Virus record (IMG/VR): IMGVR_UViG_3300032092_000184
Coordinates: 1 to 28,289 of that record
Length of the DNA stretch: 28,289 nt
Direction: 5' to 3' (one strand)
DNA from: a virus
The translations under genes were made by a program, and so were the position numbers. The notes under the pieces were generated by a model. The model made no database searches. It was given only the letters and a program-made list of their open reading frames with translations, and was not told the DNA's origin. This document shows positions 107 to 24,623 of the stretch, piece by piece (the stretch's first letter is position 1; every line of letters starts with the position of its first letter).

Positions 107-1249
107 ATGTCATGCTCGATTACGCCAATCACTGCCTTTCAAAGTACTAATTTAAATAGTAGAATAGATTCTTATTCACGATTGGCTGATCGAATCGTGC
201 GTATGTTGGGTGCACCACTGATTTCTGTAGAAACACATCAAGACCAAATATTCGAAGCTATAGCTATCTCTTGTGAGATGTTTACAAAATTTGCTGGATA
301 TACCAAAGAATATCTAGTATTTGATTCTAATTTATATGAAAGAGGAAAAGGCATAAGACTAGATTATCTCTATACATTATCAAATACTAATTTGACAAAT
401 ACACAAGTGGATAATCATACTACATTATCAACATCAACATCGCCTTATGTAAATGATCATGATCCAGTTTATGTAACTTTATCTACTATACCAGGATCAT
501 ATTTTTCTTCTTCATCTGTATTATCATCTATTTTTTCTGATGATTTGAGAGCCAATCAAATTTTAGATAAAGAAATAAGAGATTTGGTAGTAACACATAA
601 TGCATCACTTTCTGCTTTATTTCAAGAATCTGATATTCAAAAATATTCTCTGAGAGGTGAAAAAGATGCATTACCTAATACACCCATTAATAAAATGTTT
701 GACTATGATCTAATGGATTATCGTAGAGTTATTTCTGTTACAGACTTTGAAGAAGGTTCTACTTCGGGCATTAATACTTTATTCACCATAGAACAAACAT
801 TAGCACAACAGACATATTTCTCTTATGCAATGGGTAATTACGGGTTTGATCTTATTTCTTGGTATACATTAAAAGAGTGGCTTGAATTGAGAGAAAAGCT
901 ATTGTCCACGAGAAGAAGTTTTGATTTTGATGAAAGAACTCAGTATTTAAGAATGTATCCAGAACCTAATGATAGTACAAGATTCTGGGGTGTTTTAGCT
1001 TGCTATGTAGAGAGGCCTATTAGAGATATCATCAAGGAAATATGGGTTTATAAATATACTATGGCACAAATAAAAGTTCTAGTAGGTACTATTAGAGGCA
1101 AGATTCCAGTAACTATGTTTGGCGGTCAAATATTCAATGCTAATCTATTAGAACAGGGATTAGCTGAAATGAAGGAATTAGAACAACAATTATTCACAGC
1201 ATCTGCTGGATATGGTGACGCCGATCCTACTGTATTTTTGGTGGGCTAA
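107..1249 (+). CDS. Putative neck / head-tail connector protein (gp13-like position)
   Basis: A 380-residue protein, probably a virion structural component of the portal-neck region. The N-terminal part (about 25-75) is a helical region of the kind seen in connector proteins (RIVRMLGAPLISVE, then EAIAISCEMFTKFAG). The C-terminal third (about 245-370) contains WYTLKEWLELREKLL and the RPIRDIIKEIWVYKYTMAQI stretch, resembling neck or structural proteins of large T4-like phages. The middle is Ser/Thr-rich and poorly conserved in character. The gene follows a Pro-rich tail that may belong to portal, and precedes the gp4-like gene by 16 nt with no separate promoter, so the two are probably co-transcribed. 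T4 gp13 is about 309 residues, so this one is longer. The neck assignment rests on position and general resemblance, not on a decisive motif. Confidence 0.55.
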   Translation: MSCSITPITAFQSTNLNSRIDSYSRLADRIVRMLGAPLISVETHQDQIFEAIAISCEMFTKFAGYTKEYLVFDSNLYERGKGIRLDYLYTLSNTNLTNTQVDNHTTLSTSTSPYVNDHDPVYVTLSTIPGSYFSSSSVLSSIFSDDLRANQILDKEIRDLVVTHNASLSALFQESDIQKYSLRGEKDALPNTPINKMFDYDLMDYRRVISVTDFEEGSTSGINTLFTIEQTLAQQTYFSYAMGNYGFDLISWYTLKEWLELREKLLSTRRSFDFDERTQYLRMYPEPNDSTRFWGVLACYVERPIRDIIKEIWVYKYTMAQIKVLVGTIRGKIPVTMFGGQIFNANLLEQGLAEMKELEQQLFTASAGYGDADPTVFLVG

Positions 1250-1265
1250 TGATTAACAATAAGTT

Positions 1266-1721
1266 ATGCCATCTTTATCAAGAGATCCAAGATTTAAGCA
1301 AGGCATATATACTCCTAAGTATAAAGAAAAATTTATTGGTAAAATAGCTATCTATCGTTCTTCATTTGAATTGCAGTTCATGAGATGGGCTGATAATAAT
1401 CCAAATGTATTAGAATGGGGATCTGAGAATATTATCGTGCCTTATAAAAGCCCTATAGACAATAAAGTGCATCGTTACTATGTGGATAACTTTCTAGTCT
1501 TAAAAGAAGGCGAAACTATCAAAAAGTATTTGGTTGAAATAAAACCTTCTTCGCAGACACAAAAGCCCGTGCATTCCAATAGAAAAAAGAAGCAAACTAT
1601 TCTTTATGAGAATGCACAATATGCCGTTAATATGGCAAAATGGGAAGCCGCAAAATTATTCGCAAAACATAAAGGGTTTGAATTTATCATATTAACAGAA
1701 AAAGAACTTTTTTCTAAATAA
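1266..1721 (+). CDS. 4: Head completion protein, T4 gp4-like nuclease fold
   Basis: A 151-residue protein matching T4 gp4 (150 residues) in length and motif order. It has YRSSFELQFMRWADNNPNV near residues 30-48, then VLEWGSE, a VPYKSPIDNKVHRYYVD block, LVEIKPSSQTQKP and a C-terminal KWEAAKLFAKHKGFEFIILTEKEL. The E...D...ExK pattern (Glu in SSFELQF, Asp in YYVDNF, EIK) resembles the TnsA/Vsr-type nuclease core. In T4, gp4 acts with gp50 and gp65 in head completion after packaging. The start has no late box or Shine-Dalgarno of its own and lies 16 nt after the neck-like gene, so it is probably expressed from the promoter at 94. Confidence 0.85.
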   Translation: MPSLSRDPRFKQGIYTPKYKEKFIGKIAIYRSSFELQFMRWADNNPNVLEWGSENIIVPYKSPIDNKVHRYYVDNFLVLKEGETIKKYLVEIKPSSQTQKPVHSNRKKKQTILYENAQYAVNMAKWEAAKLFAKHKGFEFIILTEKELFSK

Positions 1722-1741
1722 AGAAAAGATTTCCAAAAAGG

Positions 1742-1749
1742 TATAAATA
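1742..1749 (+). promoter_or_regulatory. Late promoter box TATAAATA for gp21
   Basis: A perfect T4 late consensus (TATAAATA) ends 5 nt before the ATG at 1755. The predicted transcription start coincides with the A of the start codon. Confidence 0.8.
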
Positions 1750-1754
1750 TCGTT

Positions 1755-2417
1755 ATGCCTCTTAGACTAATTGTCGAAAAACCCGCACCTGAAGAACAGT
1801 TTGAATATATTCTAGAAGAAAAGGATAGAAATACACCAGCTACTCTTTTTATTCGTGGGCCATATATGATGGCTGAAGGCGTTAATCGCAATAATCGTCT
1901 ATATCCTATTAATGAGATGCAAAGAGAGGTTGAACGTTATCGCACAGAAATGATTTCAACAGCACGTGCTATGGGTGAATTAAATCATCCGACCAATGCA
2001 GATGTTGATTTAGAAAGAGCTTGCCACTTAGTCACTGAATTAAAACAAGATGGTAATGTTTTTTATGGTAAGAGTAAAGTATTGAATACTCCTTGCGGAT
2101 TGATTGTGAAGTCTCTTATTAATGACGGAGTTCGTGTTGGTATGTCTTCAAGGGCTTTGGGTCAATTAGTAGAAAGCGGTGGTAAAAATGTAGTAAAGGA
2201 TATGAGGCTTGTTGCAGTAGATTGCGTAGCGGATCCTTCTTTTCCGAAAGCTTTCGTAAATGGTATTCTTGAATCTAAACAATGGGTCTTATCAGAAGAT
2301 GGTAAGTTTGAAGAAGATTATGATCGATTCGAAAGAGGGATTTCTTCGTTACCTAAACACGAAGTAGATTCTTTCCTAAGAAAAATGGTGTTAGAGTTTA
2401 TCAATAAAATTAAATAA
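1755..2417 (+). CDS. 21: Prohead core protein protease, T4 gp21 family
   Basis: A 220-residue serine protease of the T4 prohead maturation type (T4 gp21 is about 212 residues). The diagnostic segments are in order: IRGPYMMAEGVNRNNRLYP (about 33-51), MGELNHPT with the catalytic-type His78, SKVLNTPCG (107-115), VGMSSRALG with the nucleophile-type Ser131 or Ser132, and VAVDCVADPSFPKAFVNG. In T4 the protease sits in the prohead core, cleaves scaffold and capsid proteins after [LI]xE and then digests itself. Fitting sites are visible in this window: ISE at residues 57-59 of gp23 and INE at residues 8-10 of the metalloprotease at 11475. The gene has its own perfect late promoter 5 nt upstream and precedes the small core protein and scaffold genes. 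Confidence 0.93.
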   Translation: MPLRLIVEKPAPEEQFEYILEEKDRNTPATLFIRGPYMMAEGVNRNNRLYPINEMQREVERYRTEMISTARAMGELNHPTNADVDLERACHLVTELKQDGNVFYGKSKVLNTPCGLIVKSLINDGVRVGMSSRALGQLVESGGKNVVKDMRLVAVDCVADPSFPKAFVNGILESKQWVLSEDGKFEEDYDRFERGISSLPKHEVDSFLRKMVLEFINKIK

Positions 2418-2418
2418 C

Positions 2419-2426
2419 CATAAATA
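2419..2426 (+). promoter_or_regulatory. Late promoter box CATAAATA for the small core gene
   Basis: CATAAATA ends exactly 5 nt before the ATG at 2432. It lies just after the gp21 stop and is the nearest recognisable late box upstream of gp22 and gp23. Confidence 0.7.
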
Positions 2427-2431
2427 TCCTC

Positions 2432-2578
2432 ATGAGCCAAAAACAAGCTATTAAAAAAATTATCCGTTGCATAAGTGAAAAAAATTATGCCGAAGCTGAT
2501 AAATACTTGAAATTAGTCGTGACCGAAAAAATGAAGTCACGTATTAGAAAAGCAATTGCAACTCAAAATATTTTTTAA
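2432..2578 (+). CDS. Small prohead core-like protein (48 aa, gp67/68-like candidate)
   Basis: A 48-residue helical, lysine-rich protein: MSQKQAIKKIIRC, then NYAEADKYLKLVV and a KMKSRIRKAIA tail. The pattern (short helix, Asp/Tyr-Ala-x-Ala repeat, basic helix) resembles the start of T4 gp67 (PIP) and small core proteins encoded beside gp21/gp22 in T4-like phages. Its location between protease and scaffold, and a late box exactly 5 nt before ATG, support a real gene. Its stop is 5 nt before the scaffold start, so gp22 is probably translated from the same message. The core role is inferred from context and weak resemblance. Confidence 0.65.
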   Translation: MSQKQAIKKIIRCISEKNYAEADKYLKLVVTEKMKSRIRKAIATQNIF

Positions 2579-2583
2579 ACGAT

Positions 2584-3474
2584 ATGCCTAAGGATATTAC
2601 AACACTTTTAAAAGAAGCGACCAAAGACCTCCTTTCTGAGGAATCGCTTAAATTAATTAAAGAATCATTCGAAGCCGCTGTTAATGAAAAGGTTTCTATT
2701 CACGTAGAAAAAGCATTAACAGAACAAGATGCCGAATATACTAAGAAGCTCGAACATCTTCTAGAAGTTCAAGACACAGACCACACCAACAAGCTTAAGA
2801 GAGTTGCCGAAGCTATTGATTTAAATAACACCAAGAAATTACAAGCTGTTATTAAGCGTTATAGTCAAGCATTAACAGAACAAGCAGGGTCATTCAAGGA
2901 TGGATTAGTTGATAATCTTTCTAAGTATCTTGATGTTTATCTTGAAAAAGCATTGCCTACTAAAGAATTAAACGAGGCTGTTAAAGATAAGAAGGCTCGT
3001 ATCGTTTTAGAAAATCTTCGCAGAACATTAGCTGTTGATTCCGCACTTATGGCTGAGTCTATTCAAGAAGCAGTATTTGATGGTGCTAAGACCATAGCAG
3101 CTGCTACTTCTTCTAATGAACAACTTTCAGAACAAGTATCTACACTCTCAGAAGAGTTAGAACAAGTCAAGGCGCAATTAGTTCTTGAACAAAAACTTTC
3201 AGCAGTAACTCCAGAGAAGCGCTCTTATGTTAAGAGAGTTCTCCAAGGAAAAGACGCACAATTTATTACAGAAAACTTTGATTACACCATTTCACTTTTT
3301 GATCAAAAGGAAGAAGAAAGAGTAGAAGCTCTTAGGGAAGAAGCATCAGAAAAGACAGTAATCAGAGAGTCGGTTTCAGTACCTTCTTCAGAAGAAGAGT
3401 TACTTGAAGAATCCACAACCGCAATTTCAACCCCTTTCCTCCCAGCTTACTTAAGTGAGCTCGGGAAGTACTAA
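2584..3474 (+). CDS. 22: Prohead scaffold protein, T4 gp22-like
   Basis: A 296-residue, strongly helical, Glu/Lys-rich protein with long coiled-coil character (about 5-130 and 170-205), as expected for the T4 prohead core scaffold (T4 gp22 is about 269 residues). It begins MPKDITTLLKEATKDLL and has a C-terminal helical domain from about 205 with SYVKRVLQGKDAQFITENF. Several [LI]xE tripeptides that would suit gp21 cleavage are scattered through it. It lies between the protease/core genes and the capsid gene, the same order as T4 21-22-23. There is no late box at this start; expression probably comes from the promoter at 2419. Confidence 0.88.
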   Translation: MPKDITTLLKEATKDLLSEESLKLIKESFEAAVNEKVSIHVEKALTEQDAEYTKKLEHLLEVQDTDHTNKLKRVAEAIDLNNTKKLQAVIKRYSQALTEQAGSFKDGLVDNLSKYLDVYLEKALPTKELNEAVKDKKARIVLENLRRTLAVDSALMAESIQEAVFDGAKTIAAATSSNEQLSEQVSTLSEELEQVKAQLVLEQKLSAVTPEKRSYVKRVLQGKDAQFITENFDYTISLFDQKEEERVEALREEASEKTVIRESVSVPSSEEELLEESTTAISTPFLPAYLSELGKY

Positions 3475-3560
3475 TTTAGTCGAAGTAACAAATTACTTGA
3501 GCATCCTGGACGAAAGTCCTTGAGGTCGAATAAAAAATAAGAAAGGAAAAGACAATCTTT
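3475..3560 (+). promoter_or_regulatory. Structured leader of the major capsid gene with two hairpins and a Shine-Dalgarno-like site
   Basis: Two perfect small hairpins lie here. AAGTAA/TTACTT with loop CAAA is at 3483-3498. GGAC/GTCC closing a GAAA tetraloop is at 3508-3519. An AAAGGAAAA stretch at 3542-3550 could pair with 16S rRNA, though its AGGA ends 13 nt before ATG, farther than usual. No late box is in register with this start. This contrasts with the box-at-5-nt arrangement elsewhere and suggests distinct translational control or RNA stabilisation of the most abundant protein. Confidence 0.5.
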
Positions 3561-5009
3561 ATGCAAATCAAACCTACACAAGCATATATCGATAAGAGTC
3601 GTGCAGAAGCACTTCTTGAGAAATGGGCACCAGTGCTCAATTATTCTTCCAAGACAGTCGCTCCTCTCGAAGACAGTCACACCCGTTTAAACACCGCAAT
3701 GCTTCTTGAGAACCAAGAATCATGGTGCATTAGTGAAGCTAATGTCGCCGGCGGCGGCAGTTCCGTTTTCGGTTCTGTTGATGCAGGTAGCACCGGTGGC
3801 CGTTTCGGCAACGCTGATAGCTACGCAACTGGTGATGCACGTCTTCCTAAGATTCTCATCCCAATGATTCGTCGTACATTCCCTGAACTCATTTCTAATG
3901 AGATTGTTGGGGTTCAACCAATGAGTGGTCCTGTTGGACTTGCTTTCGCTCTCCGTTACAAATACGGTACCGATGCACTCGGTGCTGGTGGTGCTGATGG
4001 TGGAGTCGGCGGTAATTCAACAAATCACCCATATTTTGCAACTTCATCACCCGGCGGTGAAATTGGTTATCAACATCTTGATACTCGATTCACAGGTGCA
4101 ACAGCAGGTGCCCTAAGTGGAAACGCAGAATGGGCATTCGCAGCACAAGATCAAGGTGTTGCTGAAATTCTTAAGAATTTCGAAGTTAATTCCAAAATTC
4201 CTACCGTTGAAGTCTCCTTCGAGAAGACAGCAGTAGAAGCAGGAACACGCCGCCTCGGTGCACGTTGGTCCGTTGAACTTGAACAAGATCTTAAGAACAT
4301 GAACGGCATCGATATCGACGCTGAGATCACAAATGCTATGGCATATGAGATCCAAGCAGAAATCGATCGCGAAATGATCATCCGTATGATCCAAACCGCA
4401 CTCAATGGTGGACAAGGAGCTGGATATTCTATCTGGAGCCCAATTTCCGCTGATGGTCGTTGGTTAGTTGAGCGCAATCGTGATTTCTATCAACGTTTAA
4501 TCGTTGAAGCAAATCGTATTGCTGTTCGTAACCGTCGTGGTGCTGCTAACTTCGTTGTAGCTACACCTCGCGTATGTGCAATCCTTGAAATGCTTCCTGA
4601 ATTCCAGTGGGCACCAGTTCAAGGTTCTGTAAATACACAACCAGTCGGAGTTGCCAAAGTTGGTAATCTCGGCGGTCGTTTCAATGTATATCGCGATACC
4701 CGTACAGAAGTACAAAATACTACTCAATATGGTGATCAAGGTTATGGCAATCCCCGTAAAGGTGTTGAATATGCTCTCCTTGGATACAAGGGACCAGAAT
4801 TCTACGACACCGGTATTATCTATTGCCCATACATCCCAGTTATGGTTCAGAGAACAATTGGTCCTAACGATTTTGCACCTCGCGTTGGATTGCTCACACG
4901 CTATGGCGTTGTTGACAATATCTTCGGTGCTAATCTCTATTACCACATTATTCTTGTCAAGAATTTGGGAGAAGCATTTACACCCGGCGCAAACAGCGTA
5001 TACTTCTAA
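3561..5009 (+). CDS. 23: Major capsid protein, T4 gp23 family
   Basis: A 482-residue major capsid protein (T4 gp23 is 521). Family features include a helical N-terminal delta region, LPKILIPMIRRTFPELIS, GVQPMSGPVGLAFALRYKYG (about 117-136), RRLGARWSVELEQDLKNMNGID (E-loop/spine region about 229-250) and the C-terminal domain with RTIGPNDFAPRVGLLTRYGV. A gp21-type cleavage site is visible: Ile57-Ser58-Glu59 followed by Ala60, close to the T4 cleavage after residue 65. Cleavage would leave about 423 residues. The gene is more GC-rich and its codon choice more uniform than its neighbours, fitting very high expression. It is followed by a strong intrinsic terminator. Confidence 0.95.
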   Translation: MQIKPTQAYIDKSRAEALLEKWAPVLNYSSKTVAPLEDSHTRLNTAMLLENQESWCISEANVAGGGSSVFGSVDAGSTGGRFGNADSYATGDARLPKILIPMIRRTFPELISNEIVGVQPMSGPVGLAFALRYKYGTDALGAGGADGGVGGNSTNHPYFATSSPGGEIGYQHLDTRFTGATAGALSGNAEWAFAAQDQGVAEILKNFEVNSKIPTVEVSFEKTAVEAGTRRLGARWSVELEQDLKNMNGIDIDAEITNAMAYEIQAEIDREMIIRMIQTALNGGQGAGYSIWSPISADGRWLVERNRDFYQRLIVEANRIAVRNRRGAANFVVATPRVCAILEMLPEFQWAPVQGSVNTQPVGVAKVGNLGGRFNVYRDTRTEVQNTTQYGDQGYGNPRKGVEYALLGYKGPEFYDTGIIYCPYIPVMVQRTIGPNDFAPRVGLLTRYGVVDNIFGANLYYHIILVKNLGEAFTPGANSVYF

Positions 5010-13887: not shown

Positions 13888-14472
13888 GTGGAGATTCTTA
13901 AACTAGCTGGAGACTTTAGGGGAAAGATGAATGACATAGACCGGATCGTTAAGATGTCACAGGGCTTAATGTGCTTAGGGATGACTGCAGCTTCTCTATT
14001 AACCAATCCAGCAAATTTATTCAAAGCTGCTGGGTTTATAGCTGCCTCTGCTGGAAATTTAATAGCTAATGCTGTAGCGGGTCAAATTTCTAGAAGAATA
14101 GGAACATTGACTAATATCATCAGCACACCACTTAAACTAATAAATTCCTATATCAAGAGTTTGACAAACACTTTAGATAATCTGGAAAGTACTTATAAAA
14201 AAATAAAGAGCAAAAAAACAGACCTCAAAAGTTTTTTATTTCAAACCCAAAATTGTGCTGTACAAGCAGGCAATTTTTTAAATTGTATATCTGCCATAAT
14301 AGCTAAGAAAATAACAAAAAAAGTATTATTAAAAATAGATACTGAATTTGATAAAATACAAAAAGAAGTCTCTGCTTCAGTATATGCTGCTGGTGGTATA
14401 TTAGAACAAAGTGCCGGCAGACAGATCAGACAAGTAGAGAGATTGTCTAAACAATTAAATGCAATGTTGTAA
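13888..14472 (+). CDS. Baseplate-operon helical protein of unknown function (194 aa, GTG start)
   Basis: A 194-residue, mostly helical protein starting at GTG. Residues 28-68 are hydrophobic and Ala/Gly-rich (LMCLGMTAASLL, KAAGFIAASAGNLIANAVAG), and the middle and C-terminal helices are charged and coiled-coil-like (about 85-115 and 155-194). It leads the three-gene block with the gp5-like spike gene and a second spike-like gene, separated by only 2-3 nt, so a role in baseplate hub assembly or as a small tail-lumen protein is likely by context. No specific family was recognised. The GTG is chosen because the late box ends exactly 5 nt before it. Confidence 0.7.
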   Translation: MEILKLAGDFRGKMNDIDRIVKMSQGLMCLGMTAASLLTNPANLFKAAGFIAASAGNLIANAVAGQISRRIGTLTNIISTPLKLINSYIKSLTNTLDNLESTYKKIKSKKTDLKSFLFQTQNCAVQAGNFLNCISAIIAKKITKKVLLKIDTEFDKIQKEVSASVYAAGGILEQSAGRQIRQVERLSKQLNAML

Positions 14473-14474
14473 TT

Positions 14475-15872
14475 ATGTCATCAATACTAACAGAAAAAAT
14501 TTACGGCTTTACTAGAGGTATTGTTATAAAAAATGATGATCCCTCAAAAAGAGGGAGGGTTAAAATATTCTTACCAGCATATCCGGCGTTAATATTAAAT
14601 GGATCATATTCCATGAATAAGCCAGGTGTGAAAATTCAGCCCTCAGATGTAGCGGCACAATATTTAAAAACAGAACAAGTGGCAGCTGCAGCACGTGCTG
14701 CCATATCTTCTGATACTGTCCCTTCTGCACTGCCTCCGAGTGTAATGGAAGAAATTGCTAAAATTGTACCATGGGCTGATCAAGCTTCGCCATTAATGGG
14801 GAGCGGTGGTATGGGTGTTTATGATGCATCAACGGGAAAATATAATGTCGCTGACGTTTCAAGAAACAGTAGTGATATATCGCCCGCAAAAAAAGAAGCA
14901 AAACGAATAGCAAATTCTGTTTTTCCTGATGCAAAATCTACTGGTGCAATTGATACTAGAAGCCGTTTGGGAGTACCTAGTCACACACATAATTCAGCAC
15001 GCGGGTCATTTTCTATACCAAAAGTGGGCTCTCATGTTTGGGTTTTTTTTGAAAATGGAAATGTAAAGAGACCAATTTATTTTGCATATTCATTTAATGA
15101 TGATGAATGGAATTCAGCATTGGATGGCACTCCAGATGCACCTAGTATACATCAACCCAGTGCTATTCCTTCAGAAAGCTACGTTGGTTCACCTAAACTT
15201 ATTGCTGGCAAATATACTTTAACAGAAAGGGGTGGGACACTAGAAATAGTAAACACTCAAAATTTTGAAGCAGTAAAGATTACTGACTTTCATGGAAATA
15301 CCTACCAATTAACTAATCAAGGCATATTTGAAAATACTGCAACAGGAAAAAATAAATCTACACATATATCAGGAGATTATTTTATTAAGGTGGATGGTAC
15401 GTATAAAGTAGAAGTATCCGGTGATACTCAAATAGTAAGCAAAGGCACTAAACATCATGTATCCGGAAATTTAAAAGATGTTCCCTTGCAGATGGAATGG
15501 TTATCAACAAGTGACGATGCAAGAAAGAATGCAGCTAAGTTTAAAGCACCACCAGACTTTTCAAAACTAACAGAAAATATTTCAAAGTCTGCAGAAAAGA
15601 AAGCCCCTAATGATTTCTTTTGTTTACCCAAATTTTTGAATTTTAAATTACCCGGAATTCCGTTTACTTTATTTTTGAAGCAATTAAATATGCTATTATC
15701 AAAAATAAAGAGAGGTATAGATATGGGATTAACTGTAATTAAGGGTGTACAAGAAATGTCTGATGCAATATTAGCAATAATAAGGAATCCTTTTGCATTC
15801 ATTTTCAGTCTTTTAGGTGATCCTATTAAACTATTAGGCATTTCTTTATGCAACGATAAAAAGAAAAAATAA
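14475..15872 (+). CDS. 5: Baseplate central spike / hub protein, T4 gp5-like OB-fold
   Basis: A 465-residue protein with a gp5-type OB-fold N-terminal domain: IYGFTRGIVIKNDDPSKRGRVKIFLPAYP (read as two segments, about residues 9-37), and the later half RGSFSIPKVGSHVWVFFENG followed by RPIYFAYSFND (about 177-212). An insert with PWADQASPLMGSGGMG splits them, as in other T4-type gp5 proteins. From about 250 there are short repeated beta strands (ITDFHGNTYQLTNQG, KVDGTYKVEVSGDTQIVSKG), which look like the spike stem. The T4 gp5 lysozyme domain is not visible. The C-terminal 100 residues are hydrophobic and unusual. Start follows the previous stop by 2 nt. Confidence 0.82.
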   Translation: MSSILTEKIYGFTRGIVIKNDDPSKRGRVKIFLPAYPALILNGSYSMNKPGVKIQPSDVAAQYLKTEQVAAAARAAISSDTVPSALPPSVMEEIAKIVPWADQASPLMGSGGMGVYDASTGKYNVADVSRNSSDISPAKKEAKRIANSVFPDAKSTGAIDTRSRLGVPSHTHNSARGSFSIPKVGSHVWVFFENGNVKRPIYFAYSFNDDEWNSALDGTPDAPSIHQPSAIPSESYVGSPKLIAGKYTLTERGGTLEIVNTQNFEAVKITDFHGNTYQLTNQGIFENTATGKNKSTHISGDYFIKVDGTYKVEVSGDTQIVSKGTKHHVSGNLKDVPLQMEWLSTSDDARKNAAKFKAPPDFSKLTENISKSAEKKAPNDFFCLPKFLNFKLPGIPFTLFLKQLNMLLSKIKRGIDMGLTVIKGVQEMSDAILAIIRNPFAFIFSLLGDPIKLLGISLCNDKKKK

Positions 15873-15875
15873 TAT

Positions 15876-17165
15876 ATGTCTTGTTCTCCAGATAAAAATC
15901 AAATCCAAGCAATTGCAGCGGCACGGCAAAAAATTAATTCTGCGACTAAACTAGTACAATCCTTCGGTTCTGGTTCGATTATAAAAGGAATGGGTGCGAA
16001 ATTGGTGGGCAGTTTTAAAAAGCTTTTTAAACCACCTACTGTTGAAGAAAGACAAGATCACGCATCAGTAATAGAAGACACTGCCTCTAAACTAACAGAC
16101 ATTGAAACACAAATGTATCCTGGCGGAACTGAAATTATGTCTTACACCAATGATTTGCATATTACTGTTGGTGGGGCATATGTATCTTCTCAAACAAGTC
16201 CTCCGATTAGAAAAGTTGATGGCCTGCCTGTTATTGAAAAGATTGAAATTAAAAATCAAAGAACCGATGCAAAAATATCGACTGCGCCGTATGTGGAGAC
16301 AATGTCACATCCTGTTCCTTTTGGCAATTACTCTATATTGGCTAACAACAGTTATAATCTTGTAGTAGGCGCAAATGGAATAGTCATGTCCACAGAAGGC
16401 AATATGGACCTCAATGCATTTGGTGTATCTACCATATCATCATTGCATGGATTAAATTTAACAACTTCTGAAGGCAACTTAAATATTATTTGCGGCAATC
16501 ATGTTCACATAGTAGGAAAAACTGTTAATATTCAAACGTGTAATGAAAATGATCAAGTAGTCATCAATAGTAATTTGGGCATTAAGAAGAATGCAGTAGT
16601 TCATGGTTCTTTATATGTAGATGGTGAAATATATGCGCAACACTTAACAACACCAGCACAAACACAAGAAACATCAGAGTCTATGGCCAAGGGATTCTTA
16701 CCGCCAGAACAGGTAATGGCTTACGCAGATATAGGTCCTCTAATTACTTGGATCAAGCAAAATTTTGCTATGATATCAGTATCTATAGCTAGTCAAATAC
16801 CCCAGGGCCCACATGGGTATATATATGCCCCAACGCTACCAGCTACTATCTATTATCCGGGAATGAAACTGGCGTGCAGATCATTTGACTATATGGGCAT
16901 GGGTATACCAAATGGAATGTGGGCTATGATGCCGGGCGGTCCAGTAGGTAGTGTTATGGACCCGTTTGCTATAGGCGATATTCATATGGGTGATAACGGT
17001 CAGAAAGCAGTAAGTATATTGCCGCATAATCACCAATACTATGGTCCAGCTTCTTCTAAGCTACAAGGTAATGGAGATGTTAGAGATGCTGCTTCTGTTA
17101 TTAATTCTGGTATTACTGGCGAAGCTAAAGGTGTAATACACGGTGGATCAGGACTCCATGTTTAA
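15876..17165 (+). CDS. Baseplate spike-associated beta-helical structural protein
   Basis: A 429-residue protein. After a helical N-terminus (about 1-75) comes a series of short beta repeats (ILANNSYNLVVGANGIVMST, NMDLNAFGVSTISSLHGLNL, NLNIICGNHVHIVGKTVNIQ) at about 150-235, typical of beta-helical spike stems. The C-terminal 180 residues are Gly/Pro/Met-rich, with PHNHQYYGP and IHGGSGLHV, like tail-spike tips or baseplate wedge proteins. It follows the gp5-like gene by 3 nt and so probably belongs to the same central spike complex. Its precise T4 counterpart is not clear. The TAA interlocks with the stop of the convergent GMP reductase gene. Confidence 0.7.
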   Translation: MSCSPDKNQIQAIAAARQKINSATKLVQSFGSGSIIKGMGAKLVGSFKKLFKPPTVEERQDHASVIEDTASKLTDIETQMYPGGTEIMSYTNDLHITVGGAYVSSQTSPPIRKVDGLPVIEKIEIKNQRTDAKISTAPYVETMSHPVPFGNYSILANNSYNLVVGANGIVMSTEGNMDLNAFGVSTISSLHGLNLTTSEGNLNIICGNHVHIVGKTVNIQTCNENDQVVINSNLGIKKNAVVHGSLYVDGEIYAQHLTTPAQTQETSESMAKGFLPPEQVMAYADIGPLITWIKQNFAMISVSIASQIPQGPHGYIYAPTLPATIYYPGMKLACRSFDYMGMGIPNGMWAMMPGGPVGSVMDPFAIGDIHMGDNGQKAVSILPHNHQYYGPASSKLQGNGDVRDAASVINSGITGEAKGVIHGGSGLHV

Positions 17166-18103
17166 ACAATTAAGTAATCTGTATTAATTAAATCATTAAG
17201 TGTCAGAGCGCCAGCATAAGACATAGAGCTTTGCAAATCTTCTTGAATTTCTTTTAGCTTCTCAAAATATGTAAACCCGTTTGTCGGTAATAACATCTTC
17301 TTACCTTCTACATTCTTTTTAAACCCTTTATTTTCTGCAGAAGCTGAACCGAAATATACCTTTTCACCATTAATGATTTCACCTGGGCTATCTACACATT
17401 GAGCAAAGATACTACCAGCCATAACAAAGTCTGCACCTGCAACCAATGCTTTAGCAATGTCGCCGTTATGTTGAATACCCCCATCAGCAATTAATTTAAT
17501 AGAACTACCGCACGATTCTCTAATATTCTTTACTGTAGAAAACATGGGTGTAAAGAATCCTGTTTTTAATTTTGTAATACAAGACTTTCCTGGTCCGATT
17601 CCTATTTTAATAACATCTGCTCCCCATGAAATTAAATCTAATGCAGCTACTGATGTTCCTACATTACCCGCAATAATAGTAGTATCTGGAAATATTTGTT
17701 TTAAAAAAGATAACATCTCTCTCATACTTCTACAATGCCCATGTGCTACATCTACTGTAATATAATCTAGAGAAAGATTATCAGTTTGAATTCTTCTCAA
17801 GATATTATAATCTTCATCTTTTACACCGACCGAAATAGAAATAGTATTCCACCCTTCTTTGTTTGCATGCAAAACAAATTCATAATTATCAATACCAAAT
17901 CTATGCATTACATAGAAATAATTATTTGATTGTAATTTATTAGCTAAATCATAATCAATAACACATTTCATGTTAGCTGGCATTACAGGCAATTTAAATG
18001 TTTTATTGCTTAAAGTAACATGAGTTGATAATTCTGATCTACTAGTACCGTCAAAGTATTTCGGTACTAGCGCAACGTCATCATAATGCAGAGCTTTATT
18101 CAT
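17162..18103 (-). CDS. guaC: GMP reductase-like enzyme (IMPDH/GMPR family)
   Basis: A 313-residue TIM-barrel enzyme without the CBS insert of IMP dehydrogenase. The family motifs are LHYDDVALVPKY (5-16), VDVAHGHC, IIAGNVGT and the active-site loop IGIGPGKSCITKLKTG with the catalytic Cys175 and Thr177. Further on are IADGGIQHNGDIAKALVAGADFVM and a C-terminal YFGSASAEN and SSMSYAGA flap. Length and loop favour GMP reductase, which converts GMP to IMP with NADPH, over IMP dehydrogenase, but the two cannot be fully separated by eye. In a phage it could redirect ribopurines from host RNA breakdown towards dATP supply, along with the phosphoribosyltransferase and NrdAB. TATACT ends 6 nt before ATG. 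Confidence 0.88.
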   Translation of the reverse strand: MNKALHYDDVALVPKYFDGTSRSELSTHVTLSNKTFKLPVMPANMKCVIDYDLANKLQSNNYFYVMHRFGIDNYEFVLHANKEGWNTISISVGVKDEDYNILRRIQTDNLSLDYITVDVAHGHCRSMREMLSFLKQIFPDTTIIAGNVGTSVAALDLISWGADVIKIGIGPGKSCITKLKTGFFTPMFSTVKNIRESCGSSIKLIADGGIQHNGDIAKALVAGADFVMAGSIFAQCVDSPGEIINGEKVYFGSASAENKGFKKNVEGKKMLLPTNGFTYFEKLKEIQEDLQSSMSYAGALTLNDLINTDYLIV

Positions 18104-18109
18104 AAGCTC

Positions 18110-18115
18110 AGTATA
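18110..18115 (-). promoter_or_regulatory. -10 element TATACT for the GMP reductase gene
   Basis: TATACT on the minus strand is followed by 6 nt and the ATG at 18103, matching the spacing used for nrdB and the TGT-like gene. Confidence 0.5.
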
Positions 18116-18775: not shown

Positions 18776-19342
18776 CTATTTTAGCAAACGAGAAAAGCCT
18801 AGAATAAAGACTCTATTGCCATTGTCATCTAATACATCAGTAGCATGACATTTTACCATTGTTATTTCTTCGGTGATTCTATGTTGATAGCGAAATGTCT
18901 CTTCAAATGGAATTCTATTTTCTACCATATCGTGCCACTTTTCTTGTACATGATCACGATCTTCGGGATGTATAGATAACAACCAATTATGCCCTAACGC
19001 TTCTGATTCAGACATACCGGTTAATTGTATCCATTTGCTATTTACTTTAATGCATTTACCCATAGCATCACAAAGAAAATGTGCTAGCTCTAATGTATCT
19101 AGCATAGTATAAATCAATTTACCTTGCAATTTAATTTCCGAATAAATGTGTGTTTGATGTTGTGCTATTTCTTTTATGGATAATGGCATTTCTTTTAAGC
19201 TATCCAAAAATTCTTTTATATCTGAATTAGTGAGTTTCTTCTTAATATAAAGATAAGTAGAAAACAAAGTTAATGCTGTGGATACAGCATAATATAACCA
19301 AGTAGAATGATTCTTTATTATTTGTAAGAAGAAATCTTCCAT
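18776..19342 (-). CDS. Membrane-anchored PAS-domain protein
   Basis: A 188-residue protein with one N-terminal transmembrane helix (about 14-33, STWLYYAVSTALTLFSTYLY). A short helical linker (about 38-80) follows, then a PAS domain from about 85 to 188. Its core signatures are KCIKVNSKWIQLTGMSESEALGHNW, the HPEDRDHVQEKW helix and the FRYQHRITEEITMV and VFILGFSRLL strands. PAS folds bind small ligands or mediate dimerisation. No kinase, GGDEF or other output domain follows, so it is a sensor without a visible effector. It begins 4 nt after the stop of the small membrane gene upstream, implying a joint function at the membrane, possibly control of lysis timing (inference). Confidence 0.78.
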   Translation of the reverse strand: MEDFFLQIIKNHSTWLYYAVSTALTLFSTYLYIKKKLTNSDIKEFLDSLKEMPLSIKEIAQHQTHIYSEIKLQGKLIYTMLDTLELAHFLCDAMGKCIKVNSKWIQLTGMSESEALGHNWLLSIHPEDRDHVQEKWHDMVENRIPFEETFRYQHRITEEITMVKCHATDVLDDNGNRVFILGFSRLLK

Positions 19343-20609: not shown

Positions 20610-21764
20610 ATGAAAAGCGATTTCTCGGCTTTCGTTAATCCGAATAAAAAAATTAAAAAAGAATATGAAGTTGAACAAACTGACGCTTTTGATTCTTTTC
20701 TCGCTACATTATCTGAACAATTGGGTAATCTTAAAAAAATAAATCAAGACATTTTTGAAGAAAATTTGATTTATAGCCAACCAGAAAAAATATCTACAAA
20801 AACAAATACTAGTATTGACACAAACAAGTATTTAAATTTTTTAGAAGAACTAGAGACAATACAAAAGACTACAAACTCTCTACCAGAAGAAAACAAAGAT
20901 ATCACAAACATATCTTCTCAAATAAATGAAGAACTAAAGAAGTTCAAACTACAATTAGGTAGAATGGCATTAGAGGGCGGCGGTGGGACAAATGCAGTTC
21001 AGTATGCCAATGGTGGATATATGGATGGTGACTTATTAGTCAGCGGAGATATAACAGCTTTAGGGCGCGTCATGCAAGATGGAAATGATTTATCGGCAGA
21101 TATATCAAACCTCAAAACTTTTATACAAACAAATTCTAGTGATTGGGATAGTAGTGGTGATGATCAGATGAAATTTGCAGCTGATATCATAGGTGACGGC
21201 GTTACTACAGATTTCACATTTTCACATAGTTTAGGTACTCCTGATTTGGTAGCTAATGTAATTGATAAAGAAACGAATGCAATTGTATTAGCTACAATAA
21301 TTATAGACGACACAGATATAACAGTTGAATTTTTAGAACCTTTTTTAAAAACATATCGTTTAGTTGTAATAGGATCAGGTCAGCCGGCAGTGTCTTTGGG
21401 CACTATAGTATCAGATTCAGAAAAATGGAATAATAGCAGTAATGCAGTTATTGGTTTATCATCATCATGGAATACAGGAATATTTAATTTGATAAAAGTA
21501 ACTGAGTCTGAATTTATTGAATCTAATGAATATTCACACTTTTTATATGATGATGATTTAGTTGGTTCAAGTATAAATGTAACATTATTACCAGTAGGTT
21601 CACATACTGGTGTAAAATTTCATAAAAAAATAGGTGACACTGGTTCTGTCACATTGACGCCTCCTGCGGGTGTAACAATTGATGGCGAATCTTATTTTTC
21701 TATAAATACAAAAAATCAGACAGTGGGGTTATTTACAGACGGAATTAATTATTTTATACAATAA
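20610..21764 (+). CDS. Tail fibre-like structural protein (384 aa)
   Basis: A 384-residue protein with a charged, coiled-coil N-terminal third (about 1-120). A glycine-rich hinge, GGGGTNAVQYANGGYMDGDL (about 127-146), and the LLVSGDITALG beta repeat follow. From about 185 the protein is beta-rich (DGVTTDFTFSHSLGTPDLVA, and later LLPVGSHTGVKFHKKIGDTGSV and FSINTKNQTVGLFTDGINYFIQ). The hinge plus DGDLLVSGDITA type repeat is common in tail fibre and baseplate-attached proteins of large T4-like phages, so attachment to the tail is likely; the receptor-binding part, if present, is not recognised. Start at 20610 rather than 20606 is set by reading frame and by the late box. Confidence 0.7.
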   Translation: MKSDFSAFVNPNKKIKKEYEVEQTDAFDSFLATLSEQLGNLKKINQDIFEENLIYSQPEKISTKTNTSIDTNKYLNFLEELETIQKTTNSLPEENKDITNISSQINEELKKFKLQLGRMALEGGGGTNAVQYANGGYMDGDLLVSGDITALGRVMQDGNDLSADISNLKTFIQTNSSDWDSSGDDQMKFAADIIGDGVTTDFTFSHSLGTPDLVANVIDKETNAIVLATIIIDDTDITVEFLEPFLKTYRLVVIGSGQPAVSLGTIVSDSEKWNNSSNAVIGLSSSWNTGIFNLIKVTESEFIESNEYSHFLYDDDLVGSSINVTLLPVGSHTGVKFHKKIGDTGSVTLTPPAGVTIDGESYFSINTKNQTVGLFTDGINYFIQ

Positions 21765-22027: not shown

Positions 22028-22053
22028 AGATAATTATTTATCTTGGGTGTGAT

Positions 22054-22061
22054 ATTAAATA
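22054..22061 (+). promoter_or_regulatory. Late promoter box ATTAAATA
   Basis: ATTAAATA is followed by five bases and GTG at 22067. The box chooses that GTG over an in-frame TTG at 22043 and GTG at 22049, which would lie upstream of, or inside, the promoter. Confidence 0.6.
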
Positions 22062-22066
22062 ATAAT

Positions 22067-22594
22067 GTGTACCACACTTCAGGAAACATACCGAAGCACC
22101 AGTACGTATGGGCGGATCTCTCACTCATCTCGCACGCCTCTGGATGGGCTCCGGCTGTCTGGTTTGGGATATCTTCTATTCCCGGTAGAGTATGGGGTCT
22201 CCATTTACTCCTAGAATCGGGTGCTGTTTATCGTAATGTTCCGCCACATGGGGTATCCTTTTCTCCCAATCCTCCAAATTGGTCTCCTAAAGATGCACAA
22301 TTATGGGATTGTTATTCTTCGGAATTCAGTACAATAGAATATGACTACTTATCTGAAATGCGATGTAAAACGATACCCAATGGTGATTGGGGTAGGTATC
22401 TATTCACAGTGGTTCCCTATGGAGAGGGTTTCTCGGGATACCCTGAACAAGCTAAAGAGTTCTTTTTTATACAATTGGATACCGGTAGACTAGTAATATT
22501 ACCTACTAACCGGGTTTTGTTTCGAGACCAATCCTTTACTAGAGACATTGAGATACCCCTAAAGGTATCCGATACCATTTTTAGATGTGAATAA
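22067..22594 (+). CDS. Orphan late protein of unknown function (175 aa, GTG start)
   Basis: A 175-residue protein, rich in Trp, Tyr, Pro and Gly: YHTSGNIPKHQYVWADLSL, WAPAVWFGISSIPGRVWGLH, NPPNWSPKDAQLWDCYSSEF, then VPYGEGFSGYPEQAKEFFF and LVILPTNRVLF. The aromatic-rich, beta-like character would fit a binding or virion surface protein. The family was not recognised. It precedes the tandem array by 25 nt on the same strand and has the last clear late box before it, so the array may be read from this promoter. The start is placed at the GTG 5 nt after the box. Confidence 0.65.
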   Translation: MYHTSGNIPKHQYVWADLSLISHASGWAPAVWFGISSIPGRVWGLHLLLESGAVYRNVPPHGVSFSPNPPNWSPKDAQLWDCYSSEFSTIEYDYLSEMRCKTIPNGDWGRYLFTVVPYGEGFSGYPEQAKEFFFIQLDTGRLVILPTNRVLFRDQSFTRDIEIPLKVSDTIFRCE

Positions 22595-22619: not shown

Positions 22620-22889
22620 ATGGAGTATCATGATAAAGAATCAGATTTATTGCATTTTTTATATGAAGATTATGAAGCTTGGTTAGTTAGACAAAGATAT
22701 AATAAACCCCAAATTAATGCAGACAAAATAACAGACTTTCATTATACATGGAAATTGTTTGTAGAATCTTGTGACTTCGGACTAAATCTTACCGAACCTT
22801 TAGAACGATATAATATACCGGGCGCATTTATCTATGATATCGTAGACGAGAAGAAGTGGCTCTTAGCTAAGTTAAAGTATGGACTCTGA
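22620..22889 (+). CDS. Tandem KWLLAKLKYG family, member 1 (89 aa)
   Basis: The first member of an array of related small genes. It has a variable, acidic and aromatic N-terminal part (MEYHDKESDLLHFLYEDYE), the family middle WKLFVESCDFGLNL (pattern W..F......LGI/GL) and the invariant C-terminal block IVDEKKWLLAKLKYGL. The final codons TAT-GGA-CTC-TGA contain the ATG of the next gene in another frame. The family is not recognised and has no signal, membrane segment or catalytic motif. It lies 25 nt after the orphan gene at 22067. A TATAAT sits only 2 nt before ATG, too close to be its promoter by the rule seen elsewhere. Confidence 0.75.
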   Translation: MEYHDKESDLLHFLYEDYEAWLVRQRYNKPQINADKITDFHYTWKLFVESCDFGLNLTEPLERYNIPGAFIYDIVDEKKWLLAKLKYGL

Positions 22890-23130
22890 TAATATTGTAT
22901 ATATAGACAAAGAAAGTTGGTATCAATTTCACTTAAAAGTAAGGGATGATGATATATCTGAGTACTCAGCTATGTTAGATATTATAGGTTTAAAAAGTGT
23001 TACTTGTAATCTGAAAAATCAACCATATATTATATCTATATACATGAAAGCACGAGACATTAACAAATTCCCATTTCAAGTAATTGATGAACAAAAATGG
23101 TTATTAGCTAAGTTAAAGTATGGACTATAA
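22879..23130 (+). CDS. Tandem KWLLAKLKYG family, member 2 (83 aa)
   Basis: Starts inside the last codons of member 1 (11-nt overlap) and ends VIDEQKWLLAKLKYGL, again containing the next start. The N-terminal part (MDSDNIVYIDKESWYQFHLK) and the middle (YSAMLDIIGLKSVT) are poorly related to its neighbours, lacking the clear W..FI...LGI pattern. Function is unknown. It is the most divergent intact member outside the C-terminal block. Confidence 0.75.
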   Translation: MDSDNIVYIDKESWYQFHLKVRDDDISEYSAMLDIIGLKSVTCNLKNQPYIISIYMKARDINKFPFQVIDEQKWLLAKLKYGL

Positions 23131-23424
23131 AGACGATTCTATAGAAGAATTACTCTCTGACACGGCATTGTTTAATAAATGCAGAGATGAAGGTAAATTC
23201 ATATTCATTCCCGGGATCTATGACAGGTTCCGCGACTCTTATAAAGAGTCTAATTCTCTTTATAAAGCATTCATAAAATCTAAAAATTTACTAAAAATTT
23301 AGGTGTCATGCCATGTGTTTCTATATTAAATGAAGCTTTGTATAAGAGAGATATACATTCAGATTATTATTATGTGACAAATGAAAAGATGTGGTTATAT
23401 TCAAAATTGAGGTATGGATTCTAA
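23120..23424 (+). pseudogene. Tandem KWLLAKLKYG family, member 3, frameshifted by an 11-bp duplication
   Basis: The frame opens MDYKDDSIEELLSDTALFN and reaches FIKSKNL, then meets a stop at 23300-23302. An exact 11-bp tandem duplication (23280-23290 and 23291-23301) causes this. Deleting one copy restores a 97-residue protein that continues GVMPCVSILNEALYKRDI and ends YYYVTNEKMWLYSKLRYGF, a proper family C-terminus, closing at the TAA at 23422-23424. The next start again lies 11 nt inside this end. The shortened 60-residue product may still be made, but it lacks the conserved block. A sequencing or assembly error is the main alternative. Confidence 0.8.
23280..23301 (+). repeat. 11-bp tandem duplication causing the frameshift in member 3
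   Basis: CTAAAAATTTA is present twice in a row with no mismatch. As 11 is not a multiple of 3 it shifts the frame. One copy alone gives the family sequence KSKNLGV. Confidence 0.9.
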
Positions 23425-23635
23425 ATTATTTTTTAGTGAAGATATATGGGACAGGTTTCAACATGAATATTATGCCAAACAACCATACACTGGAAGAGGT
23501 GGATGGAAATTATTCATTTCAAATAAAGACTTAGGTATCAGATATACCCCTTCATATACACTAGATTTAATACATGTTTATGAAGTCGTCGATGAACAAA
23601 AATGGCTCTTAACTAAGTTAAAGTATGGATTCTAA
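23414..23635 (+). CDS. Tandem KWLLAKLKYG family, member 4 (73 aa)
   Basis: Starts 11 nt before the end of the frameshifted member 3. It shows the fullest family pattern in short form: MDSKLFFSEDIWDRFQHEY, then GWKLFISNKDLGIRYTPS (W..FI..K.LGI) and YEVVDEQKWLLTKLKYGF. Function is unknown. Its end contains the ATG of member 5. Confidence 0.75.
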   Translation: MDSKLFFSEDIWDRFQHEYYAKQPYTGRGGWKLFISNKDLGIRYTPSYTLDLIHVYEVVDEQKWLLTKLKYGF

Positions 23636-23924
23636 CATTTATAATAGATATGATAGTATCTTAGTAGATGTGGCATTATGTGATGTATTTCTAGGAGAGT
23701 TCTTAGAAAGTGAAGAAGGAATACATCGTTCTCCTAAAGAGAATCTTAATCGTTGGTGTATTTTTATTAACGAGAAGAATCTAGGAATCTATGTTACTCA
23801 AACACCTCCCGACTCAGTAGGCCATATGGATTGGGTATATACGGTAATAGATCCTAAGAAATGGTTCTTAACTCAACTCAAATATAGTTTAAATTTTAGA
23901 AATCCTGATGAAGCAGAATTCTAA
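23625..23924 (+). CDS. Tandem KWLLAKLKYG family, member 5, with lost stop and C-terminal extension (99 aa)
   Basis: Begins MDSNIYNRYDSILVDVALC and has the family middle NRWCIFINEKNLGIYVTQ, then VYTVIDPKKWFLTQLKYSL. At the place where the others read Y-G-L/F-stop this one has TAT-AGT-TTA-AAT, so the old stop and the old overlapping ATG are both gone. The frame runs on 11 more codons (NFRNPDEAEF) before stopping at 23924. The next gene has moved its start into this extension. The block itself is also more diverged (WFLTQLKYS). Function is unknown. Confidence 0.75.
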   Translation: MDSNIYNRYDSILVDVALCDVFLGEFLESEEGIHRSPKENLNRWCIFINEKNLGIYVTQTPPDSVGHMDWVYTVIDPKKWFLTQLKYSLNFRNPDEAEF

Positions 23925-24117
23925 TATAAAATCTGACGACATCTTAGATAAGCTTCTCCCTTTCTGGTATTTATCTGGAATTAATCATTACTATGATTTC
24001 ATGAAACACTTAGACATTGGTATTCTGCCAATAGGATCTGAAAAAGTAATTAGTAATAATTATAGAATCGTAGACGAAAATAAATGGCTCTTAGCCAAGC
24101 TAAAGTATGGACTCTGA
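23908..24117 (+). CDS. Tandem KWLLAKLKYG family, member 6 (69 aa)
   Basis: The shortest intact member. It starts at an ATG within the extension of member 5 (17-nt overlap instead of 11), so its N-terminus is MKQNSNIKSDDILDKLLPF rather than MDS. The middle reads YDFMKHLDIGILPIG and the end YRIVDENKWLLAKLKYGL, with the next ATG embedded. Function is unknown. Confidence 0.75.
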   Translation: MKQNSNIKSDDILDKLLPFWYLSGINHYYDFMKHLDIGILPIGSEKVISNNYRIVDENKWLLAKLKYGL

Positions 24118-24331
24118 AGTAGAAAACAGTAAACTCAATGCACGACTCTGGCGTATTTTACATAAAGAATTTATTAAAAACTTCACCGAGGACTCAACGT
24201 ATGATGCCTGGATTTCTTTTATTGAAGGAAAAGATCTCGGCCTCGCAGTAAGCGTAGAGGGATATTATATCGTATATAAAATAATTGACGAACGAAAATG
24301 GCTCTTAGCTAAGCTAAAGTATGGGTTCTAA
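24107..24331 (+). CDS. Tandem KWLLAKLKYG family, member 7 (74 aa)
   Basis: The last full member: MDSEVENSKLNARLWRILH, then AWISFIEGKDLGLAVSV and YKIIDERKWLLAKLKYGF. It overlaps member 6 by 11 nt. Its own final codons still contain ATGGGTTCTAA in the overlapping frame, though no full gene follows. Function is unknown. Confidence 0.75.
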   Translation: MDSEVENSKLNARLWRILHKEFIKNFTEDSTYDAWISFIEGKDLGLAVSVEGYYIVYKIIDERKWLLAKLKYGF

Positions 24332-24380
24332 TATATACATATTAGAATTGACATTTCGAAATCTTGACAAAAAAGAATAG
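24321..24380 (+). other. Array end: short stub opening from the eighth overlapping start
   Basis: The ATG embedded in the end of member 7 opens a frame of only 19 codons (MGSNIYILELTFRNLDKKE) ending at 24380. Its MGSNIY opening resembles MDSNIY of member 5. It may be the leftover of a deleted eighth copy, or simply the open end of the array. It is unlikely to be a functional gene. Confidence 0.5.
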
Positions 24381-24623
24381 TCTTCACTCAATCGAGTCAT
24401 CATATTTATAATTCCCAGTACGGAATAAGGAATATATAACCTCAGAACCCCGGAAGACAACGGGCCGTCAGCGCCTATAGGAAAAACAGAGGATTTTTAG
24501 AAAAAAAATTTTTTGGTTCGGATGGACTCGGAAGGCTATTAGGAAATCGGCAGGTTTTTATAGAAATTTTTTAGGCATGCCGCCTCTACCAACCTTGTGC
24601 CGGTCCTTTGTTTATAGCACTAT
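24381..24623. other. Non-coding junction between the array and the right arm
   Basis: No convincing gene on either strand. It contains two similar A/T-rich blocks, each a short purine stretch followed by a T run (around 24493-24514 and 24554-24572), and a GGCATGCC palindrome at 24573-24580. Base composition changes here from AT-rich to more balanced. No clear terminator or origin can be named. Confidence 0.5.

Follow-up and report, generated by a model that had tools for sequence, protein, structure and literature searches.

The DNA stretch analysed here (the window, 28,289 bases of a viral record) carries T4-type genes, among them a gp23-like capsid protein about 33% identical to its marine cyanophage counterparts, and its open reading frame listing places a tandem run of seven small paralogues on the plus strand between positions 22620 and 24331 (Table 1). 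A sequence-only reading had described a seven-gene tandem array with a fixed C-terminal block, and both parts of that description hold, with the amendments that the reading frame of member 3 is interrupted and that a remnant eighth member follows. Mean identity between window paralogues reaches 76% in a 14-residue C-terminal block versus 21% elsewhere, and a family profile that left out the window's own proteins and included near-identical orthologues from the related contig L008 matches the individual intact window members at 6e-13 to 1e-21; together, these matches and the contrast in identity exclude chance. The members are protein-coding paralogues of 60-99 residues and make up a new phage protein family. 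The frame of member 3 is shifted by an 11-nt tandem duplication of CTAAAAATTTA, which may be a real mutation or an assembly error, and its L008 orthologue is intact at 97 aa. In member 5 the C-terminus is prolonged (KYSLNFRNPDEAEF) and the overlap with member 6 amounts to 17 nt; member 8, a 92-aa protein in L008, is reduced by an internal deletion to a 19-codon remnant, as seen in the alignment.

Table 1. Array members and associated features in the window
Feature	Coordinates	Strand	Evidence and remarks
Syntenic gene 5' of the array, phrog_3704 (labelled ferredoxin or PurM)	22043..22594	+	PHROGs E 1e-18; in all four contigs
Array member 1	22620..22889	+	89 aa; ORF, profile match; orthologue L008 4571-4840, dN/dS 0.07
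Array member 2	22879..23130	+	83 aa; ORF; orthologue L008 4830-5078, dN/dS 0.44
Array member 3	23120..23424	+	Frameshifted: 23120-23302 plus 23308-23424; intact in L008 5068-5361
Two tandem copies of CTAAAAATTTA breaking member 3	approx. 23279..23300	+	L008 alignment and sequence
Array member 4	23414..23635	+	73 aa; ORF; orthologue L008 5351-5575, dN/dS 0.14
Array member 5	23625..23924	+	99 aa; ORF; orthologues L008 5565, L009 8213; model pLDDT 85.1
Array member 6	23908..24117	+	69 aa; ORF; orthologues L008 5848, L009 7505
Array member 7	24107..24331	+	74 aa; ORF; orthologue L008 6047, dN/dS 0.82; model pLDDT 85.7
Remnant of array member 8	24321..24380	+	MGSNIYILELTFRNLDKKE, then stop; intact in L008 6261-6539

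The array genes are physically interlocked. An 11-nt overlap had been noticed in nearly every case, and the count confirms it for six of the seven window junctions and for 28/32 junctions over four contigs, the others being 17-nt overlaps (3/32) and a 6-nt gap (1/32). The final codons of the block, TAT GGN, double as the source of the ATG for the following gene, which lies in the +1 frame relative to its predecessor and starts 11 nt before the latter's end. The tyrosine codon of the terminal KYG motif is TAT in every block that hosts the next ATG. Five other blocks have no start embedded at this point; among these the codon is TAC in two, both of terminal genes where no start is needed, the tyrosine is never lost and the glycine is lost in three. 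The tyrosine is therefore retained for the protein, and the glycine may be kept partly for the start of the next gene. Furthermore, when codons for identical block residues are compared within each genome, 34-51% of the comparisons differ; given this synonymous variation, the block is maintained as a protein sequence rather than as DNA.

We found no recognisable Shine-Dalgarno sequence at the array starts, yet most other window genes also have none. Because the starts are devoid of such sites, termination-reinitiation is a plausible mode by which the downstream members would be translated. Over the four contigs, almost every start has an in-frame stop 6 nt upstream, and we reject on that ground a polyprotein produced by readthrough or frameshifting. 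In T4-type phages, the PeSL mobile regulatory cassettes said to have been described by Arbiol (2010) and Comeau (2014) reportedly consist of a non-coding promoter-terminator hairpin, a repeated element between small genes that is said to promote modular shuffling. The array does not fit that organization of promoter and stem-loop between genes, as its 11-nt overlaps leave no intergenic space and its repeated element, unlike PeSL, is coding and forms the 3' end of every gene. Promoter-like sites in the array occur at shuffle level, the only terminator-like site on its plus strand lies inside member 3, and the late-promoter motif TATAAATA is uninformative, with five occurrences in the window versus 5.2 expected.

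Syntenic arrays are present in three related viral contigs, L008 (8 members), L009 (14) and L010 (6), so that copy number, whose comparison among related phages had been proposed as a check, does vary from the seven members plus remnant of the window. Scans of the viral collection with the array proteins or the seam pattern returned only these three contigs besides the window, and scans with the flanking genes again returned those three together with a distant contig whose phrog_3704 protein is 48% identical and in whose 20.7 kb the array was not found. Given this convergence of array-based and flanking-gene scans, every contig found of this lineage has the array in the same place. In tblastn searches of the phage and plasmid collections, single members had no matches or only chance ones (Staphylococcus, Listeria and other phages, E 2-9), and the family was not found in 84,980 host species scanned by pattern. 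Among eight named phage genomes, the family profile matched once, in P-SSM2 (E 0.006), which we take as chance because it contains an internal stop and lies within the annotated gp26, the listed protein being without the motif; likewise, a match at G003 25188 (E 0.04) is taken as chance, as the 228-aa ORF in which it sits has no C-terminal block.

The surroundings of the arrays show several further features. In L008 (4229-4534) and L009 (4965-5270), a gene for a 101-aa protein separates the array from the phrog_3704 gene; this protein is absent from the window and not listed in L010. Directly 3' of the array, all four contigs carry at least two copies of an AT-rich repeat of about 60 nt (TATAGGAAAT...ATTTTTAGAAAAAAAATTTTT), at 24477-24600 in the window, 6636 and 6698 in L008, 8594 and 8750 in L009, and 6213 and 6297 in L010. 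A C2H2 zinc-finger gene with a weak Pfam match lies just 3' of the arrays of L009 (8930-9598) and L010 (6477-7145); its DNA is 98.8% identical between the two, the flanking genes being 62-75% identical, and its product is probably a nuclease and a candidate mobile (homing-type) endonuclease. On the contig of L010, the segment L035 includes five tandem paralogues of about 270 aa, tail-collar-like by eye (13956-18115), that make up another tandem array of the phage lineage, as well as a DNA polymerase gene apparently split by an intein-like sequence, again by eye (392-4327). Finally, positions 18776-19342 of the window encode a PAS-domain protein with a hydrophobic N-terminal segment, in a T4-type phage.

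The locus has the makings of a gene accordion: tandem homologous genes at a single site, a copy number that differs between relatives, and sequence signs of recombination between members. The clearest such sign is a pair of L009 members, 6824 and 7044, that are identical over 100 nt of their 3' part, up to the overlap and ending in TATGG, and unrelated in their 5' halves, a combination that points to recombination near the seams. The order of orthologues is also shuffled, as members 5565 and 5848 follow one another in L008 and their L009 counterparts lie at 8213 and 7505, respectively. These observations point to recombination near the overlap and, with the varying array length, lend the earlier interpretation partial support. 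Member loss is shown by the remnant, by the frameshifted copy and by the last L010 gene, which retains the embedded stub ATG of a lost successor. In the phylogenetic tree, orthologues cluster across phages, and therefore most paralogues predate these phages. Apart from the 100-nt case, the longest exact run within a genome is 35 nt; seam identity is mostly short and the longer runs sit in the 3' block. Blocks of one genome do not in general resemble each other in DNA more closely than they resemble those of other genomes; seam conversion is thus occasional, and concerted evolution of the block across the genome finds no support in the same comparison. Adjacent blocks show a weak excess of similarity in L009 (Mantel p 0.04) and no significant one in L008 or L010.

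Such plasticity bears on a structural role. The array lies just 3' of a cluster of virion-type genes in a neighbourhood that also holds accessory genes, and an upstream gene (20610-21764) has PHROGs structural matches; the members could accordingly be subunits of a phage hetero-oligomer or a minor virion component, where the C-terminal helix common to them would be the interface and coupled translation of the interlocked units would balance the subunits. We consider this improbable, as 6 to 14 members in shuffled order, with one broken and one deleted in the window, fit a fixed assembly poorly and as the members have no structural-protein match.

AlphaFold models of members 7 and 5 follow the same α-α-β-β-α order, in which the C-terminal block makes up the second strand and the last helix and an invariant glycine follows helix 2. 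The structure prediction suggested earlier as a check thus returns one fold for both members and, with the block forming the last strand and helix of a shared domain, the 'different' N-termini would represent a single diverged fold, the diverged part corresponding to two predicted helices and a strand. The sequence-only reading had called the N-terminal parts very different, which stands for their sequence (21% identity outside the block) and not for their predicted architecture. Scans of 28 or 34 members against Pfam-A, PHROGs v4, NCBIfam and PADLOC-DB gave no convincing match (best E-values of 0.0022 to 0.08 depending on the library, each in one or two members only), a profile search of solved structures reached E 0.36 at best, and no member matches a defence, anti-defence or host-takeover family; the initial remark that no described family was recognised thus holds for Pfam, PHROGs, NCBIfam and PADLOC, and no PDB family gives a convincing match. 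Structural comparisons returned nothing at E 0.001 with Foldseek and Z-scores of at most 3.2 with VIA, so that no fold-library entry stands out, a missing match being no evidence for a new fold.

The helix-helix-hairpin layout, a lysine conserved in the last helix and the frequency of ArsR, SmtB and PadR winged-helix proteins among the weak Foldseek and VIA matches of member 7 would suit small, winged-helix-like nucleic-acid-binding regulators diversified for different sites. We judge this less probable still than the structural role, given that every such match is insignificant (Foldseek E at least 0.37, Z at most 2.9), that the best matches of the other modelled member (5) are unrelated folds, and that net charge is often negative among the members. 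Their charges span -7 to +3, which also led us to reject DNA mimicry.

Between the window and its L008 orthologues, pooled dN/dS is 0.26 for the N-terminal part and 0.14 for the block, and synonymous change exceeds non-synonymous change in both (Fisher 8e-6 and 7e-5, respectively). Both parts are thus under purifying selection in this comparison, and the pooled N-terminal parts give no indication of recent positive selection. The N-termini had further been described as fast-changing, a view at odds with a dN of 0.031 that matches the 0.030 of the block; their differences are better described as old divergences within one shared predicted fold. Single members range in dN/dS from 0.06 to 0.82 between the window and L008. 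The upper end of that range, the narrow distribution, and the frameshift, deletion and stub among present copies might suggest an array that is mainly a by-product of recombination, in which the repeated seam duplicates genes whose products are nearly neutral spares, but purifying selection on the pooled members and on distant orthologue pairs (dN/dS 0.13-0.30 where dS is estimable) makes this the least probable of the alternatives.

We are highly confident of the array anatomy and of its recombination, and give about an even chance to the overall interpretation, a gene accordion of accessory host-interaction proteins. In this gene accordion, the coding block common to all gene ends would allow recombination between blocks to add, remove or swap whole genes with frames and starts preserved; such whole-gene exchange is well supported. 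The fixed part could serve as structural core or as a docking element common to the members, whose diverged helices would allow binding to various partners, most probably proteins of the host or of anti-phage defence; this is the weakest step of the proposal. Such host or defence targeting is suggested by how small, redundant and narrowly distributed the members are and by their rapid turnover; to this role, as read from sequence, we assign somewhat less than an even chance. More tentatively, and in our view rather unlikely in its full form, the array may be a self-preserving set of cassettes in which the block is at once the fold core, the start of the next gene and the recombination seam, so that any crossover between blocks would give intact, interlocked genes and diversify a host-targeting repertoire.

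In the literature searched, we found no described array of this kind. The csa1 cluster of S. aureus is likewise a standing tandem cluster of paralogues, thought to concern host interaction, whose length changes in a RecA-linked way by recombination between similar genes, but it encodes bacterial lipoproteins that are unrelated to the array proteins and highly similar to each other (PMC7360770). In phage T4, the anti-defence locus dmd-tifA undergoes tandem amplification under toxIN selection via short-homology recombination; the resemblance lies in a small accessory gene repeated in tandem in a T4-type phage, and the difference in that those are laboratory-evolved repeats of one locus (PMC9391042). 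The present array consists instead of standing, strongly diverged and interlocked paralogues with no known sequence relation to dmd-tifA. To our knowledge, a coding overlap at each seam has not been described for the csa1 genes. According to excerpts of its description, the ORFanage of the T4-like cyanophage S-PM2 is also a block of many small orphan genes, lost under laboratory passage, and is not presented in those excerpts as paralogues or as a fixed-overlap array (PMC4503421).

Tandem amplification is a known phage answer to host defences, usually seen as recent, near-identical copies. The array described here stands apart as a standing, strongly diverged set of up to 14 genes, in which crossovers would preserve frames and starts. 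Should the members have different host proteins as partners, arrays of this kind would record phage-host conflict in readable form and offer a route to unknown defence targets.
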